This document shows, in pieces, positions 42,009 to 53,221 of a stretch of DNA of 64,000 nucleotides (position 1 is the first letter of the stretch; each line of letters begins with the position of its first letter). Source of the stretch: Acidovorax sp. GW101-3H11. Its GTDB lineage: Bacteria > Pseudomonadota > Gammaproteobacteria > Burkholderiales > Burkholderiaceae_C. The stretch is taken from NCBI RefSeq assembly GCF_001633105.1, contig NZ_LUKZ01000009.1, forward strand, positions 525,716-589,715, read 5' to 3'. Under the pieces are notes generated by a model that ran no database searches, had not been told where the DNA came from, and saw only the letters and a list, made by a program, of their open reading frames with translations. Both the position numbers and the translations under genes were made by a program.

Positions 42009-42066
42009 TAAAACAGGCCTTGCCGCGCATCCAGCATGGCTTTATAGCTATCAATTTTGAATACCT
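42009..42066 (+). repeat. AGCTATCAAAA-type short element, copy E (intergenic)
   Basis: Contains AGGCCTTGCCGCGCATCCAG then CATGGCTTTATAGCTATCAA. The copy at 53164 carries GGCCCCTTCCGCGCATCCAT then CATCCCTTTATAGCTATCAA, nearly the same over 40 bases. It occupies the 294-bp gap between smc and the CHASE-PAS-GGDEF-EAL gene, which holds nothing else I recognise. Confidence 0.7.
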
Positions 42067-47070: not shown

Positions 47071-47466
47071 ATGACAACCCCTCAAGGCACCGTCGAGCTG
47101 ACGGAGATCGTCTTCCCCACCATCGCCAACCACTACGGCACGCTGTTCGGCGGCAACGCCTTGCAGCTCATGGCCAAGGCGGCGTTTCTGGCAGCGCGCG
47201 GCGCCGCACAGCGCGATGTGGTGATGGCGGGCGTGACGGATGTGTGCTTTCTGGCCCCCGTGCCCGTGGGCCATGTGCTCACGCTGCGCGCCTGGGTCAG
47301 CCGCATCGGGCGCAGCTCGCTCACCGTGTGTGTGACCGGCCTGGCCGCCACGCTGGGCTCGCCACCTGAGGAGGTGCTGAAGGGAATTTTTGAAATGGTG
47401 GCGGTGGATGGCAAAGGCCGCCCCGCCGCCATCACCAACGCCTATGCAAACCAGGAGACCGCATGA
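47071..47466 (+). CDS. Acyl-CoA thioesterase (hotdog fold, YciA-like)
   Basis: A 131-residue single hotdog-fold thioesterase. The sequence [21 protein letters not shown] has the catalytic Asn/Gly region of YciA/BFIT-type enzymes, followed by [17 protein letters not shown] and [13 protein letters not shown] at 47071 gives a normal-length protein; upstream codons run through operator sequence. Its stop overlaps the prpC start (ATGA), placing it first in the prp unit. A role in releasing CoA from accumulated propionyl- or methylcitryl-related CoA esters is reasonable but unproven. Confidence 0.85.
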
Positions 47467-48620
47467 CTACCACCGTTGAAACCCCGGGCTTCAAGCCCAA
47501 GAAGTCCGTCGCGCTCTCGGGCGTGACCGCCGGTAACACCGCCCTGTGCACCGTGGGCCGCACGGGCAACGACCTGCACTACCGGGGCTACGACATCCTC
47601 GACATTGCCGAGGTCTGCGAGTTTGAAGAAATCGCCCACCTGCTGGTGCACGGCAAGCTGCCCACACGCGCCGAACTGCGCGCCTACAAGGCCAAGCTCA
47701 AGGCCCTGCGCGGCCTGCCGCTGTCAGTCAAGCAGGCGCTGGAACAACTGCCCGCCGCCAGCCACCCCATGGACGTGATGCGCACGGGCGTCTCGGCCCT
47801 GGGCTGCGCGCTGCCCGAAAAGGACGACCACAACCTGCCCGGCGCGCGCGACATTGCCGACCGGTTGATGGCATCACTGGGCTCCATGCTGCTCTACTGG
47901 TACCACTGGGCCAGCTCGGGCCGCCGCATCGAGGTAGAGACCGATGACGACTCCATCGGCGCGCACTTCTTGCACCTGCTGCACGGCACCCCACCCAGCG
48001 CGGCCTGGGAGCGCGCCATGCACACCTCGCTCAACCTGTATGCCGAGCACGAGTTCAACGCCAGCACCTTCACCGCCCGCGTGGTGGCTGGCACGGGCAG
48101 CGACATGTACTCGGCCATCACCGGCGCCATTGGTGCGCTGCGCGGCCCCAAGCACGGCGGCGCCAACGAGGTGGCCTTCGAGATCCAGAAACGCTACGAC
48201 AGCCCCGACGAGGCCGAGGCCGATATCCGCCGCCGCGTGGACGCCAAAGAGGTGGTCATAGGATTCGGCCACCCGGTCTACACCGTGAGCGACCCGCGCA
48301 ACGTGGTCATCAAGGGCGTGGCGCACAACTTGTCGCAAGAGGCGGGCAGCACCAAGATGTTCGACATTGCCGAGCGGCTGGAATCTGTGATGTGGGAGGT
48401 CAAAAAGATGTTCCCCAACCTCGACTGGTTCAGCGCCGTGAGCTACCACATGATGGGCGTGCCCACCGCCATGTTCACGCCGCTGTTCGTCATTGCGCGC
48501 ACCAGCGGGTGGGCGGCGCACATCATCGAGCAGCGCATCGACAACAAGATCATCCGGCCGAGTGCGAACTACACCGGGCCCGAAGACCTGGTGTTTGTGC
48601 CCATCGAACACCGCGCTTGA
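47463..48620 (+). CDS. prpC: 2-methylcitrate synthase PrpC
   Basis: Citrate-synthase-family enzyme (385 residues) condensing propionyl-CoA and oxaloacetate. Active-site segments: [20 protein letters not shown] (catalytic His and Asp area), [26 protein letters not shown] and the Asp of the C-terminal [13 protein letters not shown] stretch. [22 protein letters not shown] is typical of PrpC rather than GltA. Overlaps the thioesterase stop by 4 bp. It is followed by a 163-bp gap filled by an inverted pair of C/T-rich repeats, then acnD. Confidence 0.95.
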
Positions 48621-48640
48621 ATCTCGCCTCCCCTTTCTTC

Positions 48641-48680
48641 CTCCCTCTCCCCTCGCGGGAGAGGGCCGGGGAGAGGGGGT
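48641..48680 (+). repeat. C/T-rich palindromic repeat R1
   Basis: Runs CTCCCTCTCCCCTCGCGGGA then GAGGGCCGGGGAGAGGGGG. The first half is itself a hairpin (CCCTCTCCC pairing with GGGAGAGGG). Plus orientation is defined here as '...CGCGGGAGAGGG-CCGGGG-AGAGGGGG'. Confidence 0.8.
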
Positions 48681-48708
48681 GAACCCGCACAGCGTCACCT
48701 TGCAACCG

Positions 48709-48744
48709 CCCCCTCTCCCCCAACCCCTCTCCCGCGAGGGGGAG
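48709..48744 (-). repeat. C/T-rich palindromic repeat R2 (inverted to R1)
   Basis: CCCCCTCTCCCCCAACCCCT then CTCCCGCGAGGGGGAG: the reverse complement of R1 with few changes, 28 bp from it. R1 and R2 together can fold into one long stem between prpC and acnD. Confidence 0.8.
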
Positions 48745-48783
48745 TGAACAGCCGGGCGCCAGAATGCCCCGCCACTTCAGCCC

Positions 48784-51453
48784 ATGATGAACACCCTGTT
48801 TCGCCGCCCTTTGCCGGGCACTGATCTTGATTACTTCGACGCCCGTGCCGCTGTCGAAACCCTGCAACCGGGCGCCTGGGCCACCCTGCCCTACACCGCC
48901 CGGGTCCACGCCGAGAGCATCGTGCGCCGCGCAGACCCGGCCACCGTCAACGACTGCCTGCGCCAGCTCATCGAGCGCAAGCGTGACCGCGACTTCCCCT
49001 GGTACCCCGCGCGCGTGGTGTGCCACGACATCCTGGGCCAGACGGCGTTGGTGGATCTGGCGGGCCTGCGCGATGCGATTGCCAAGGGGGGCGGCGACCC
49101 GGCCCAGGTGAACCCCGTGGTGCCGGTGCAGCTCATCGTGGACCATTCGCTGGCCGTGGAGTGCGGCGGGTTCGACCCCGATGCCTTCGCCAAGAACCGC
49201 GCCATTGAAGACCGCCGCAACGAGGACCGCTTTCACTTCATCGAGTGGACGAAAAAAGCCTTTGCCAACGTGGATGTCATCCCGGCGGGGAACGGGATCA
49301 TGCACCAGATCAATCTGGAAAAAATGTCGCCCGTGGTCCATGCCGACCGGGGCGTGGCCTACCCCGACACCTGCGTGGGCACCGACAGCCACACCCCGCA
49401 TGTGGATGCGCTGGGCGTGATCGCCATCGGCGTGGGCGGCCTGGAGGCCGAGAACGTGATGCTGGGCCGCGCATCGATGATGCGTCTGCCCGAGATGGTG
49501 GGCGTGGAGCTGACCGGTCAGCGCCAGGACGGCATCACCGCCACCGATGTGGTGCTGGCGCTGACCGAGTTTTTGCGCAAGGCCAAGGTGGTGGGCGCCT
49601 ACCTGGAGTTCTTTGGCGAAGGCGCCGCCAAGCTCACCCTTGGCGACCGCGCCACCATCTCCAACATGGCGCCGGAATATGGCGCCACGGCGGCGCTGTT
49701 CTGCATCGATGAACAGACGCTGGACTACCTGCGGCTGACTGGTCGCGAGGCCCGCCAGGTCAAGCTGGTCGAAACCTATGCCAAAACCGCAGGTTTGTGG
49801 GCCGATGCGCTCGCGGGCGCGGTGTACGACCGCACCCTGCGCTTTGACCTGTCTACCGTGGTGCGCAACCTGGCCGGCCCCTCCAACCCGCATGCGCGCG
49901 TAGCCACCTCAGACCTGGCCGCCCGGGGCATTGCGGGCCCCTGGGCCTTGCCGTCGCCGGGCGAAGGCACGATGCCCGACGGCGCCGTGGTCATCGCCGC
50001 CATCACCAGCTGCACCAACACCAGCAACCCGCGCAACGTGATCGCGGCCGCGCTGCTGGCGCGCAACGCTCACCGGCTGGGCCTCACACGCAAGCCTTGG
50101 GTCAAGACCTCGCTCGCGCCGGGCTCGCGCGTGGTGGAGCTTTACCTGAAAGAAGCCGGTCTGCTGACCGACCTGGAGGCGCTGGGCTTTGGCATCGTGG
50201 CCTTTGCCTGCACCACCTGCAACGGCATGAGCGGTGCGCTGGACCCTGCGATTCAGCAGGAGATCATCGACCGCGACCTGTACGCCACCGCCGTGCTTTC
50301 GGGCAACCGCAACTTTGACGGGCGCATCCACCCGTACGCCAAGCAGGCGTTCCTGGCCTCGCCGCCCCTGGTGGTGGCCTATGCGATTGCGGGCACGGTG
50401 CGGTTTGACATTGAAAAGGATGTGCTGGCGGTAGTGGATGGCCAGCCTATCCGGCTCAAGGACCTGTGGCCCAGCGATGAAGAAATCGACGCCGTGGTGA
50501 AGGCCGCCGTGAAACCCGCACACTACCGCGCCGTGTACGAGCCCATGTTCGCCATCCGGCACGACGATGGCCCGCGCGTGTCGCCGCAATACGACTGGCG
50601 GCCACAGTCCACCTACATCCGCCGCCCGCCCTACTGGGACACCGAAGGCATCGGCGCACTGGCCGCCCACCCGCGCACCCTGCAGGGGATGCGCCCGCTG
50701 GCCCTCCTGCCCGACAACATCACCACCGACCACCTCTCGCCGTCCAACGCCATCCTGCCGGACAGCGCGGCGGGCGAATACCTGGCGCGCATGGGCCTGC
50801 CGGAGGAGGACTTCAACTCCTACGCCACCCACCGGGGCGACCACCTCACCGCCCTGCGCGCCACGTTTGCCAACCCGCAACTGGTCAATGAGATGGCCGT
50901 GGTCGATGGCAAGGTCCAGAAAGGATCGCTCGCCCGCGTGGAGCCCGAGGGCCAGGTCATGCGCATGTGGGAGGCCATCGAAACCTACCTGCACCGCCGC
51001 CAGCCGCTGATCATCATTGCCGGGGCCGACTACGGCCAGGGATCGAGCCGCGACTGGGCCGCCAAGGGTGTGCGGCTGGCGGGGGTGGAGGTGGTGGTGG
51101 CCGAGGGGTTTGAACGCATCCACCGGACCAATCTGATTGGGATGGGGGTGTTGCCGCTGGAGTTTGAGGCGGGGGTCAACCGCACCACGCTGCAACTCGA
51201 GGGCACAGAGGTTTATGGCGTGGAGGGGGATCTGAAGCCCGGGGCCACCGTGACGCTTGTTGTGCAACGCAAGTTGGGTGAGGTGGTGAAGGTGCCCATG
51301 CGCTGTCGGCTGGACACGGCGGAGGAAGTGTCGGTGTACGAGGCGGGTGGGGTGCTGCAGCGTTTTGCACAGGACTTTCTGGCGGCGCGGGCTGGGGCAG
51401 CCCCCTCTCCCCAACCCCTCTCCCGCGAGGGGAGAGGGGCTAGCGCGCGTTGA
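48784..51453 (+). CDS. acnD: Fe/S-dependent 2-methylcitrate dehydratase AcnD
   Basis: Aconitase-family enzyme (889 residues) that, with PrpF, replaces PrpD by dehydrating 2-methylcitrate. The [4Fe-4S] ligands are in AAITSCTNTSNPRN and CTTCNGMSG; swivel-domain residues GADYGQGSSRDWAAKG and the N-terminal DSHTPHVDALG are intact. The presence of prpF just downstream supports AcnD rather than a standard aconitase. The last 13 or so residues (SPQPLSREGRGASAR) are encoded by repeat R3 (51401-51439), so the natural C-terminus has been replaced or extended by repeat sequence. The alternative ATG at 48787 is one codon later. Confidence 0.94.
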   Translation: MMNTLFRRPLPGTDLDYFDARAAVETLQPGAWATLPYTARVHAESIVRRADPATVNDCLRQLIERKRDRDFPWYPARVVCHDILGQTALVDLAGLRDAIAKGGGDPAQVNPVVPVQLIVDHSLAVECGGFDPDAFAKNRAIEDRRNEDRFHFIEWTKKAFANVDVIPAGNGIMHQINLEKMSPVVHADRGVAYPDTCVGTDSHTPHVDALGVIAIGVGGLEAENVMLGRASMMRLPEMVGVELTGQRQDGITATDVVLALTEFLRKAKVVGAYLEFFGEGAAKLTLGDRATISNMAPEYGATAALFCIDEQTLDYLRLTGREARQVKLVETYAKTAGLWADALAGAVYDRTLRFDLSTVVRNLAGPSNPHARVATSDLAARGIAGPWALPSPGEGTMPDGAVVIAAITSCTNTSNPRNVIAAALLARNAHRLGLTRKPWVKTSLAPGSRVVELYLKEAGLLTDLEALGFGIVAFACTTCNGMSGALDPAIQQEIIDRDLYATAVLSGNRNFDGRIHPYAKQAFLASPPLVVAYAIAGTVRFDIEKDVLAVVDGQPIRLKDLWPSDEEIDAVVKAAVKPAHYRAVYEPMFAIRHDDGPRVSPQYDWRPQSTYIRRPPYWDTEGIGALAAHPRTLQGMRPLALLPDNITTDHLSPSNAILPDSAAGEYLARMGLPEEDFNSYATHRGDHLTALRATFANPQLVNEMAVVDGKVQKGSLARVEPEGQVMRMWEAIETYLHRRQPLIIIAGADYGQGSSRDWAAKGVRLAGVEVVVAEGFERIHRTNLIGMGVLPLEFEAGVNRTTLQLEGTEVYGVEGDLKPGATVTLVVQRKLGEVVKVPMRCRLDTAEEVSVYEAGGVLQRFAQDFLAARAGAAPSPQPLSREGRGASAR
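51401..51439 (-). repeat. C/T-rich palindromic repeat R3 (inside acnD 3' end)
   Basis: CCCCCTCTCCCCAACCCCTC then TCCCGCGAGGGGAGAGGGG; same orientation as R2. It is translated as the AcnD tail. Confidence 0.8.
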
Positions 51454-51542
51454 TGAGGGCCGCGCTCATGCAAACCCTGTCACCATCACTGCATCGCGCC
51501 GAGGAGCTTGCTCAGTCAGACAATGCTCCCTTTTGCCTTGCT

Positions 51543-51587
51543 CCCCTCGCCCCTCGCGGGAGAGGGGCCGGGGGAGAGGGGGCCCCA
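51543..51587 (+). repeat. C/T-rich palindromic repeat R4 (left flank of DUF559 gene)
   Basis: Contains CCCTCGCGGGAGAGGGGCCG then GGGGAGAGGGGGCCC; same orientation as R1. It ends 4 bp before the DUF559 ATG at 51591 and its AGAGGGGG could act as the ribosome site. Confidence 0.8.
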
Positions 51588-51590
51588 CCC

Positions 51591-51974
51591 ATGGACCAGC
51601 GCCAGTTCACCAAAACCCTGCGCCAAAACATGACCGACGCCGAGCAACTGCTCTGGAAGCACCTGCGCGCCCACCGCATGAGCGACCATAAGTTCCGCCG
51701 CCAGCAACCCATCGGCCCCTACATCGTGGACTTTGTGCATTTCGGCCAGCGGCTGATCGTGGAAGCGGATGGCGGGCAGCATGTGGATTCGGACCACGAC
51801 GCGATCCGCGACGCCTGGCTGCGCAGCCAGGGCTTCACCCTGCTGCGGTTCTGGAACAACGACATCCTGCACAACACCAACGCAGTCCTCGAAGCCATTT
51901 GGCACGCCATGCACACGGACACCCCCTCTCCCCCAACCCCTCTCCCGCAAGGGGCGAGGGGAGGAACACCATGA
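51591..51974 (+). CDS. DUF559-family protein (Vsr/restriction-endonuclease-like fold)
   Basis: A 127-residue protein of the DUF559 family, related to very-short-patch-repair endonucleases. NMTDAEQLLWKHLRAHRM, KFRRQQPIGPYIVDFVHF and LIVEADGGQH carry the conserved acidic residues (Asp in IVDF, Glu and Asp in VEADG) of a PD-(D/E)xK-like site, and GFTLLRFWNNDIL is the family's C-terminal strand. It sits between acnD and prpF, where no gene is expected, flanked by inverted repeats R4 and R5. The stop overlaps the prpF start (ATGA). The last 13 residues (SPPTPLPQGARGG) are translated from R5. Activity and target are unknown. Confidence 0.85.
   Translation: MDQRQFTKTLRQNMTDAEQLLWKHLRAHRMSDHKFRRQQPIGPYIVDFVHFGQRLIVEADGGQHVDSDHDAIRDAWLRSQGFTLLRFWNNDILHNTNAVLEAIWHAMHTDTPSPPTPLPQGARGGTP
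51921..51964 (-). repeat. C/T-rich palindromic repeat R5 (right flank of DUF559 gene)
   Basis: CCCCCTCTCCCCCAACCCCT then CTCCCGCAAGGGGCGAGGGGA; inverted to R4. It encodes the DUF559 tail and ends in GAGGGGAGGAA, which is the apparent ribosome site of prpF (ATG at 51971). Confidence 0.8.
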
Positions 51975-53161
51975 ACAACCATCCCCATCAAATCAAAGTA
52001 CCTGCCACCTACCTGCGCGGCGGCACCAGCAAAGGCGTGTTCTTCCTGTTAGAAGACTTGCCCGCCCCCGCCCAACAACCCGGCCCCGCGCGCGACGCCC
52101 TGCTGCTGCGCGTGCTGGGCAGCCCCGACCCGTATGGCAAGCAGATCGACGGCATGGGCAATGCGTCCTCCAGCACCAGCAAGGCCGTGATCCTGTCGCG
52201 CAGCACGCGGCCGGGGCACGATGTGGACTACCTGTTTGGCCAGGTGTCCATCAACCAGCCCTTTGTGGACTGGAGCGGCAACTGCGGCAACCTCTCGGCG
52301 GCCGTGGGGCCCTGCGCCATCCACATGGGGCTGATCGATGCGGCGCGCATTCCGCAGAACGGCACCATCCCCGTCCGCATTTGGCAAGCCAACATCGGCA
52401 AGACCATCGTGGCGCATGTGCCCATCACCCACGGGCAGGTGCAGGAGACGGGCGACTTTGAACTGGACGGGGTGACCTTTGCGGCGGCCGAGGTGGCACT
52501 GGAGTTCATGGACCCAGCGGACGATGGCGACGAAGGGGGCGGCATGTTCCCCACCGGCAATGTCGTAGACACCCTCGAAGTACCGGGCGTCGGCAGCTTT
52601 GCCGCCACGCTGATCAACGCGGGCATCCCCACCATTTTTCTCAACGCGCAGGAGCTGGGCTACACCGGCACCGAACTGCAAGGCGCGATCAATGGCGATG
52701 CGGTGGCACTGGCGCGCTTCGAGGCCATCCGTGCCCACGGCGCCCTGCGCATGGGCCTGATCCAGCACCTGGGAGAGGCCACCACACGCCAGCACACACC
52801 CAAGATCGCGTTCGTCGCGCCGCGCGCCAGCTACACGGCCTCCAGCGGCAAAGCCATCGATGCCAAAGACATCGACCTGTTGGTGCGCGCCATCTCCATG
52901 GGCCAGCTGCACCACGCCATGATGGGCACGGCGGCCGTGGCCATTGGCACGGCGGCAGCCATCCCGGGCACGCTGGTCAACCTGGCGGCGGGTGGCGGCG
53001 TGCGCAGCAGCGTGCGGTTTGGCCACCCCTCGGGCACCTTGCGTGTGGGGGCCGAGGCAGCGCAGATCAACGGCCAATGGAAGGTGACCAAAGCCCTGAT
53101 GAGCCGCAGCGCGCGCATCCTGATGGAGGGCTGGGTGCGTGTGCCTGGCGGTGTTTTTTGA
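51971..53161 (+). CDS. prpF: 2-methylaconitate cis-trans isomerase PrpF (AcnD accessory protein)
   Basis: PrpF-family isomerase of 396 residues that converts the AcnD product to the form used for rehydration. The fold's two halves are visible (LRGGTSKGVFF near the start; GNCGNLSAAVGP about 98-109; VDTLEVPGVGSFAATLINAG; MSRSARILMEGWV at the end). RGGTSKGVFF and the substrate-binding GNC are conserved. ATG at 51971 is preceded by GAGGGGAGGAA from repeat R5. The gene is normally placed directly after acnD; the DUF559 cassette separates them here. Confidence 0.94.
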   Translation: MNNHPHQIKVPATYLRGGTSKGVFFLLEDLPAPAQQPGPARDALLLRVLGSPDPYGKQIDGMGNASSSTSKAVILSRSTRPGHDVDYLFGQVSINQPFVDWSGNCGNLSAAVGPCAIHMGLIDAARIPQNGTIPVRIWQANIGKTIVAHVPITHGQVQETGDFELDGVTFAAAEVALEFMDPADDGDEGGGMFPTGNVVDTLEVPGVGSFAATLINAGIPTIFLNAQELGYTGTELQGAINGDAVALARFEAIRAHGALRMGLIQHLGEATTRQHTPKIAFVAPRASYTASSGKAIDAKDIDLLVRAISMGQLHHAMMGTAAVAIGTAAAIPGTLVNLAAGGGVRSSVRFGHPSGTLRVGAEAAQINGQWKVTKALMSRSARILMEGWVRVPGGVF

Positions 53162-53163
53162 GG

Positions 53164-53221
53164 TTTTTTGGCCCCTTCCGCGCATCCATCATCCCTTTAT
53201 AGCTATCAAAACAGTAGCAAA
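53164..53221 (+). repeat. AGCTATCAAAA-type short element, copy F (intergenic)
   Basis: TTTTTTGGCCCCTTCCGCGC, then ATCCATCATCCCTTTATAGC and TATCAAAACAGTAGC. It fills the gap between prpF and the isocitrate-lyase-family gene; its first bases lie 3 bp past the prpF stop. Confidence 0.7.

Follow-up and report, generated by a model that had tools for sequence, protein, structure and literature searches.

Why does a small gene of the DUF559 family stand between acnD and prpF in Acidovorax sp. GW101-3H11, enclosed by two inverted copies of one short palindrome, and what has this gene to do with the repeats? The question is raised by a stretch of 64,000 nucleotides of this genome (contig NZ_LUKZ01000009.1, positions 525,716 to 589,715 of the forward strand), called the window here and numbered from its first nucleotide. 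The gene (51591-51974, plus strand) encodes 127 amino acids (PF04480, YcjD-like), and its flanking palindromes are of the BoxC/PIT/TM kind, a repeat family for which we know of no mobiliser. An original prediction, made from the sequence alone, had likened the layout to REP/RAYT systems with a Vsr-like nuclease in place of the transposase, and had proposed a nuclease-mobilised cassette that spreads the palindromes. In this study, we show that DUF559 genes and these palindromes are associated in layout, in copy number and in stem variant. We consider it reasonably likely that the DUF559 nuclease is the trans-acting partner of BoxC/PIT palindromes and that the moving of palindromes, as the likeliest cause, underlies the association.

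Knowledge of BoxC/PIT repeats in E. coli goes back to the 1990s, and the motif, named BoxC, PIT element or TM triplex motif, has been reported in more than 260 genomes (PMC4666352). In the accessible portion of that report, triplex formation by the TM motif is demonstrated in vitro, no mobility function is found near the motif and DUF559 is absent from the account (PMC4666352). Among the open-access papers listed by our literature searches, none linked DUF559 with BoxC/PIT repeats, and none that we saw gave an origin for these repeats.

Results

The DUF559 gene is enclosed by members of a genome-wide palindrome family

Upstream of the gene lies R4 (51538-51582, plus orientation, loop CC, core 51544-51566) and downstream, just before the prpF start, R5 (51922-51966, minus orientation, loop TT, core 51938-51960). 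As the original prediction had it, the two are inverted copies of one GC-rich palindrome (45 nt, 91% complementary, inverted-repeat score 33). The third copy that it placed just upstream, R3 (51395-51439, minus orientation, core 51416-51438), is found inside the acnD 3' end, oriented as R5 and forming its direct-repeat partner. The C-terminus of the protein was likewise correctly traced to R5, from which the tail PSPPTPLPQGARG is translated.

A loose core pattern matched six times in the window and never in shuffles; in the 5.44 Mb genome the core pattern matched 66 times, versus once for a reversed control pattern. For spacing, 62 of the 66 cores were placed, four weak ones being left out (three of them overlap a listed core on the other strand). 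These 62 form 27 adjacent -/+ pairs, 26 of them 70-90 bp apart and the remaining one, R4-DUF559-R5, 393 bp apart, so that the gene-bearing arrangement has the geometry of the 26 solo doublets. Six +/- neighbours are 72, 129 (R3-R4), 132, 135, 135 and 153 bp apart. Thirteen distinct solo doublets (loci L002-L021) measure about 100 nt and have a variable middle; by eye, their right end reads GGGAGT in nine and their left end ACTCCC in five. The gene-free doublet R1/R2 (48635-48748), between the presumed prpC and acnD, folds into a single long hairpin and does so much better than shuffled sequence (z -7.1).

Many DUF559 genes of other bacteria are flanked by inverted repeats

The search for similarly flanked DUF559 genes elsewhere, suggested by the original prediction, was productive. 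From named records we took the best 80 of at least 559 DUF559 matches, of which 79 loci were usable; chosen in this way, the sample leans towards the window's DUF559 protein. Flanking inverted repeats scored at least 18 in 47 of these 79 loci and at least 14 in 52, versus 1 and 2 of 632 random places in the same loci. Among these best 80, the loci scoring at least 18 include Nitrospirae, Planctomycetes, Chloroflexi and Melainabacteria records, many of them metagenome bins; a Spirochaetes record in the same set had no flanking inverted repeat. A further 69 DUF559 loci were hand-picked from the match list, short partial matches being left out. Across 106 loci of the class and the genus, a pyrimidine-purine hairpin of at least 8 bp stood on both sides in 61 and on one side in 31, while random windows had hairpins on both sides in 0 and on one side in 12 of 199. 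The gene of the window is two-sided by the inverted-repeat score, yet one-sided by this strict stem test, owing to a stem mismatch in R4 and R5.

Repeat copy number follows DUF559

Repeats of this family are not equally common with and without the gene. Of 47 genomes of the genus, the seven with full-length DUF559 carry 21-54 cores on the forward strand and the other 40 carry 0-20, with none in 24. The highest counts without the gene are 20 (G019; genomes and loci bear our own G and L labels), 17 (G028), 15 (G010) and 13 forward or 15 reverse (G038), and G019 and G038 retain repeat remnants at the acnD-prpF site. For 369 genomes of the class, the larger of the two strand counts was used, and strong carriers of DUF559 were defined by a threshold of our own (E below 1e-16). 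At least one core occurred in 60 of 77 strong carriers versus 59 of 292 others, and at least five in 39 of 77 versus 28 of 292 (odds ratio 9.7, p 3e-14). Within the 38 families that contain both states, carriers had the higher count in 27, the lower in 5 and a tie in 6 (p 1.1e-4); the same comparison for Y1 transposases gave 19 higher, 9 lower and 22 tied.

Y1 genes are present in 241 of the 369 genomes, the source genome has two such genes, and Y1 taken alone is weakly associated with at least five cores (52/241 versus 15/128, p 0.023). The DUF559 effect persists both with Y1 (odds ratio 10) and without it (7.4). The association of DUF559 with cores is largely independent of RAYT/Y1 transposases, and these were rejected as the driver, having no significant effect in the 369 genomes once DUF559 was considered (p 0.19 and 0.41).

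Three genomes of the class (G319, G139 and G093) contain 81, 73 and 56 BoxC cores and no PF04480 match was found in them; G319 and G139 have DUF559 carriers in the same family, and the sample contains no other member of the family of G093. Although ycjD is present in K-12, the PF04480 matches did not include the E. coli control genome, whose strain may lack the gene. A copy-number test within E. coli (3.5 other places in the 37 ycjD-positive rows listed versus 1.4 in the 22 ycjD-negative ones, for which one extra place was subtracted for sapF by assumption) was left out of the evidence because it is confounded by lineage.

The stem variant matches the DUF559 lineage

Stems vary between lineages (CCTCTCCC, CTTCTCCC, CCTCCCC, CCCYTTT, CCCTCCT), and we defined the classes after the hairpins had been seen. 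In 55 of 59 loci the two sides of the gene have the same stem type, where shuffling gave a mean of 23.8 and a maximum of 33. On a DUF559 tree of 84 loci, in which 55 of 102 inner branches are weak, the stem types need 15 changes, versus 32 when shuffled, a value as low being reached in 0 of 200 shuffles; CCCYTTT forms one clade.

Variants were also counted genome-wide in 78 genomes, namely the 77 strong carriers and G334, 16 of which have no typed hairpin. At least four copies of CCCCCTTT were present in 8 of 9 genomes with the matching flank type versus 4 of 53 others; the corresponding figures are 5 of 7 versus 10 of 55 for CCTTCTCCC and 30 of 37 versus 9 of 25 for CCCTCNCCC. In G078, four of 15 CCCCTCCT cores lie at three near-identical DUF559 copies and two beside a second DUF559 type, and no such core was found in two members of its family that have no listed DUF559 match. 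Hence, the hairpin variant follows both the DUF559 lineage and the genome's own repeats.

The acnD-prpF site is filled in few relatives

Adjacency of acnD and prpF had been taken as the normal state, and in the genus the gene-free site is the commoner one. At 30 congener loci, DUF559 was present in six, cores alone in two and neither gene nor core in 22; two further loci (G043 filled, G009 empty) bring the count to 7 of 32, and the prpF-matching genomes G005, G013, G028 and G041 lie outside this survey. Cores of the exact pattern stand on both sides in five of the first six filled loci; in the sixth, G039, the downstream copy is degenerate yet still an inverted repeat. The closest relative at prpF (G010, 95%) has an empty site, and the site state changes six times on the prpF tree. 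The prpC-acnD doublet is likewise patchy among the same species. Compared by eye with its close relative G020, G019 appears to have lost DUF559 and R4 through a deletion bounded by the direct repeats R3 and R5.

Ungapped identity over the last 150 nt of acnD falls to 63-69% in the filled/empty pairs G031/G027, G034/G011 and G000/G010, and is 92% and 85% in the filled pairs G000/G034 and G000/G031 and 69-83% in the other filled pairs listed. This pattern suggests that some filled alleles passed from one species to another together with the acnD tail. For the patchy distribution in the genus, exchange of alleles combined with loss is a better account than repeated insertion, and repeated fresh insertion within the genus found no support. 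Vertical presence with losses alone was also rejected: losses exist (G019), yet empty relatives retain intergenic sequence that is absent from filled ones.

Two local peculiarities were seen. At the site in G029 (L039), a second palindrome precedes a truncated copy of the initial DUF559 codons, a local partial duplication. In G005, G009, G028 and G043 the prpF match comes in two overlapping pieces near residues 187-209, as if a short insertion were present.

Duplicated gene copies in other genomes

DUF559 paralogues within a genome are mostly 37-68% identical. Near-identical copies occur in G078 (three, 97-98%) and G367 (two, 92%), and G395 and G406 have two copies each at 87% and 76%. In G367 the two copies share 90% identity over about 620 bp, end in inverted repeats of about 100 bp and lie 1.5 Mb apart in different surroundings. 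Those of G078 end in inverted repeats of about 80 bp and have, on reading, 9-bp direct repeats outside them, perfect in two and 8/9 in the third; the automatic duplication test scored one of the three. The 17-nt outer end of the G078 element recurs at four other sites (L301-L304) with AAC-like flanks and no inverted mate, and there may therefore be a helper element in this genome. Spread on plasmids was rejected, since only 45 of 72,556 plasmid records have a DUF559 relative, all below 60% identity.

The DUF559 product and its neighbours

The start of the gene is best put at the ATG at 51591; at its other end, the stop TGA (51972-51974) and the prpF ATG at 51971 overlap (ATGA). The product matches PF04480 with 137.4 bits (curated cut-off 20.6, E 2.1e-40) and NCBIfam PRK09767 with 111 bits, under the cut-off of 218; in the Pfam search the flanked gene did not match PF01797 (Y1), and MTES_1575 matched below the cut-off. 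Matches to enterotoxin B chains, at E 0.05 and above, were dismissed as chance. Residues D47, E58, D60, H64 and D70 are invariant across 27 relatives, and we take them to be candidate active-site residues. The folds nearest to the predicted model are NGO0050, the homing endonuclease I-Bth0305I and Vsr, and by this comparison the catalytic domain has the fold common to EDxHD homing endonucleases and Vsr. The predicted local distance difference test (pLDDT) is below 50 at residues 113-115 and 120-126 of the model, which makes it improbable that the tail encoded by the repeat belongs to the functional fold.

The surrounding genes stand in line on the plus strand: a citrate synthase family gene (47463-48620, PF00285), which from its position and from the pathway we presume to be prpC, then acnD (48784-51453; TIGR02333, 1710.6 bits) and prpF (51971-53161; TIGR02334, 734 bits), the latter two by NCBIfam equivalogs. 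Another intergenic repeat, which contains AGCTATCAA, occurs at 42018-42054 and 53173-53209 and at loci L029, L034, L035, L112 and L113. It often adjoins GCGCTT/AAGCGC arms and recurs in the genus, including at empty acnD-prpF sites.

Discussion

The data support a two-part system of a palindrome and its cognate nuclease, which in layout and in population pattern is like REP/RAYT. To this extent the original prediction is strongly supported, within the window and beyond it, since doublet architecture, copy number, cognate variants and bracketing, the last in several phyla, all agree with it. Two checks that could have overturned it turned out in its favour, the gene being present at 7 of 32 sites and not at every one, and the repeats being unequally common with and without it. 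The nuclease-mobilised cassette fared less evenly: copy number follows DUF559 and the duplicated genes of G078 and G367 speak for movement of the gene itself, whereas within the genus the genes keep to one site in a pattern that fits allele exchange and loss.

As to mechanism, the palindrome would extrude as a hairpin in single-stranded DNA, where a nuclease of the Vsr/EDxHD type would recognise its own stem variant and cut there or at a target. Repair of the break would then copy the palindromic unit into the cut without target duplication, and through this same process a filled allele could also convert an empty counterpart, in the manner of homing endonucleases. The gene-bearing unit would consist of the gene between its two inverted palindromes, and the gene-free doublets of about 100 bp would be its non-autonomous relatives.

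Several observations weigh against this reading. R4 and R5, taken singly, fold no better than shuffles (z -0.4 and -1.6). All seven full-length DUF559 genes of the genus stand at acnD-prpF, a single site. Target duplications of at least 6 bp were found at 2 of 86 loci versus a shuffled mean of 1.0, and on this count a classical insertion sequence with target duplications was rejected in general. At least five cores are present in 23 of 257 genomes without a PF04480 match, and 17 of the 77 strong carriers have no core of this stem type. The gene and the solo doublets might simply be co-inherited, with no causal tie between them. Finally, cutting, copying and the direction of cause are steps that we infer.

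Foremost among the alternatives is a homing-type selfish gene: DUF559 would cleave the acnD-prpF allele that lacks it, and homologous repair would copy it into the cut. On this view the repeats mark its boundary or serve it as recognition sequence, and are dispersed as a by-product. The acnD tails may suggest such exchange; however, plain recombination yields the same pattern, the filled/empty pair G029/G025 has no drop at the acnD end (95%, ungapped), other filled pairs are at the 69-83% stated above, and homing alone leaves the genome-wide copy-number link unexplained. We regard it as unlikely. Less probable still, with perhaps a small chance of being right, is a host repair nuclease that handles hairpins or mismatches and is retained where palindromes abound because it is needed there. 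The Vsr fold of the model speaks for a repair role, as does VsrA of Caulobacter, a DUF559-bearing Vsr-like protein which, according to the accessible part of the report, causes an SOS response in cells lacking cytosine methyltransferase (PMC12907096). Yet repair accounts neither for a gene bracketed by inverted copies nor for a variant that follows the nuclease lineage. A third alternative makes DUF559 a passenger, with some other enzyme (RAYT/Y1 or a DDE transposase) mobilising the palindromes. The frequency and weak association of Y1 genes, the 9-bp repeats of G078, suggestive of a classical event, and its mateless outer ends might point that way. We judge it very improbable, because Y1 has no significant effect given DUF559 and because chance would hardly capture the same gene family time and again with matching variants on both sides.

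For the cognate nuclease as partner of the palindromes, a wider proposal can be made: a new class of mobile elements across bacterial phyla, in which a DUF559 nuclease of the Vsr/EDxHD type moves BoxC-superfamily palindromes, cutting the hairpin variant that belongs to it and spreading that variant by break repair without target duplications, with DUF559 lineages and palindrome variants co-evolving. We offer this tentatively and put its chance somewhat below even. BoxC/PIT repeats here gain a candidate enzyme, and DUF559, a widespread domain of unknown function, would gain a role.

Comparison with known systems

The window repeat is like BoxC/PIT/TM in having a pyrimidine arm, a purine arm and a second purine stretch in the same order (PMC4666352). 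Loops are of two types in both, TTA and CCG in BoxC/TM (PMC4666352) and TT and CC in the window, and inverted pairs of the two loop types occur in both, occasionally so in BoxC/TM (PMC4666352). The accessible text of that report finds no mobility function near BoxC/TM and does not mention DUF559 (PMC4666352), whereas the window family is tied to a DUF559 gene. One pattern matches the hairpin arms CCCTCNCCC/GGGAGAGGG both in the E. coli BoxC beside ycjD and in the window cores, and on reading the third purine stretch and the loops are common to both.

The E. coli protein YcjD belongs to the same family as the window protein. In K-12 the last codons of ycjD (NRRSPSP) are read from half a BoxC, and a full BoxC core lies 168 bp downstream of the stop; unlike at the window gene, no BoxC was seen by eye in the 67 bp to sapF upstream. 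A fabI-ycjD-sapF query was at least 80% covered in 3362 of 5426 E. coli genomes, ycjD being patchy in the species, and in one strain (L198) efflux genes adjoin fabI instead. With many strains that have both ycjD and BoxC and many without most of the ycjD locus, this model species makes the question directly testable.

I-Bth0305I and Vsr have their fold in common with DUF559, which differs from them in standing without an intron or inverted-intein context and in being tied to palindromes. CGTC repeats are a palindrome superfamily without a dedicated transposase, as far as the accessible part of their description goes (PMC3733652), so that orphan palindromes are a known gap. The closest parallel in organisation is REP/REPIN with RAYT (TnpA-REP), in which short palindromes occur as tens of inverted pairs and one chromosomal partner gene is flanked by these palindromes, with cognate variants; the 26 pairs of the source genome, 70-90 bp apart, are REPIN-like. 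A GTAG or CGTC tag, a feature of REP/RAYT, was not seen by eye at the ends of the 13 doublets. The two systems differ above all in the enzyme, an HUH Y1 transposase in REP/RAYT and a PD-(D/E)XK/Vsr-like nuclease here.
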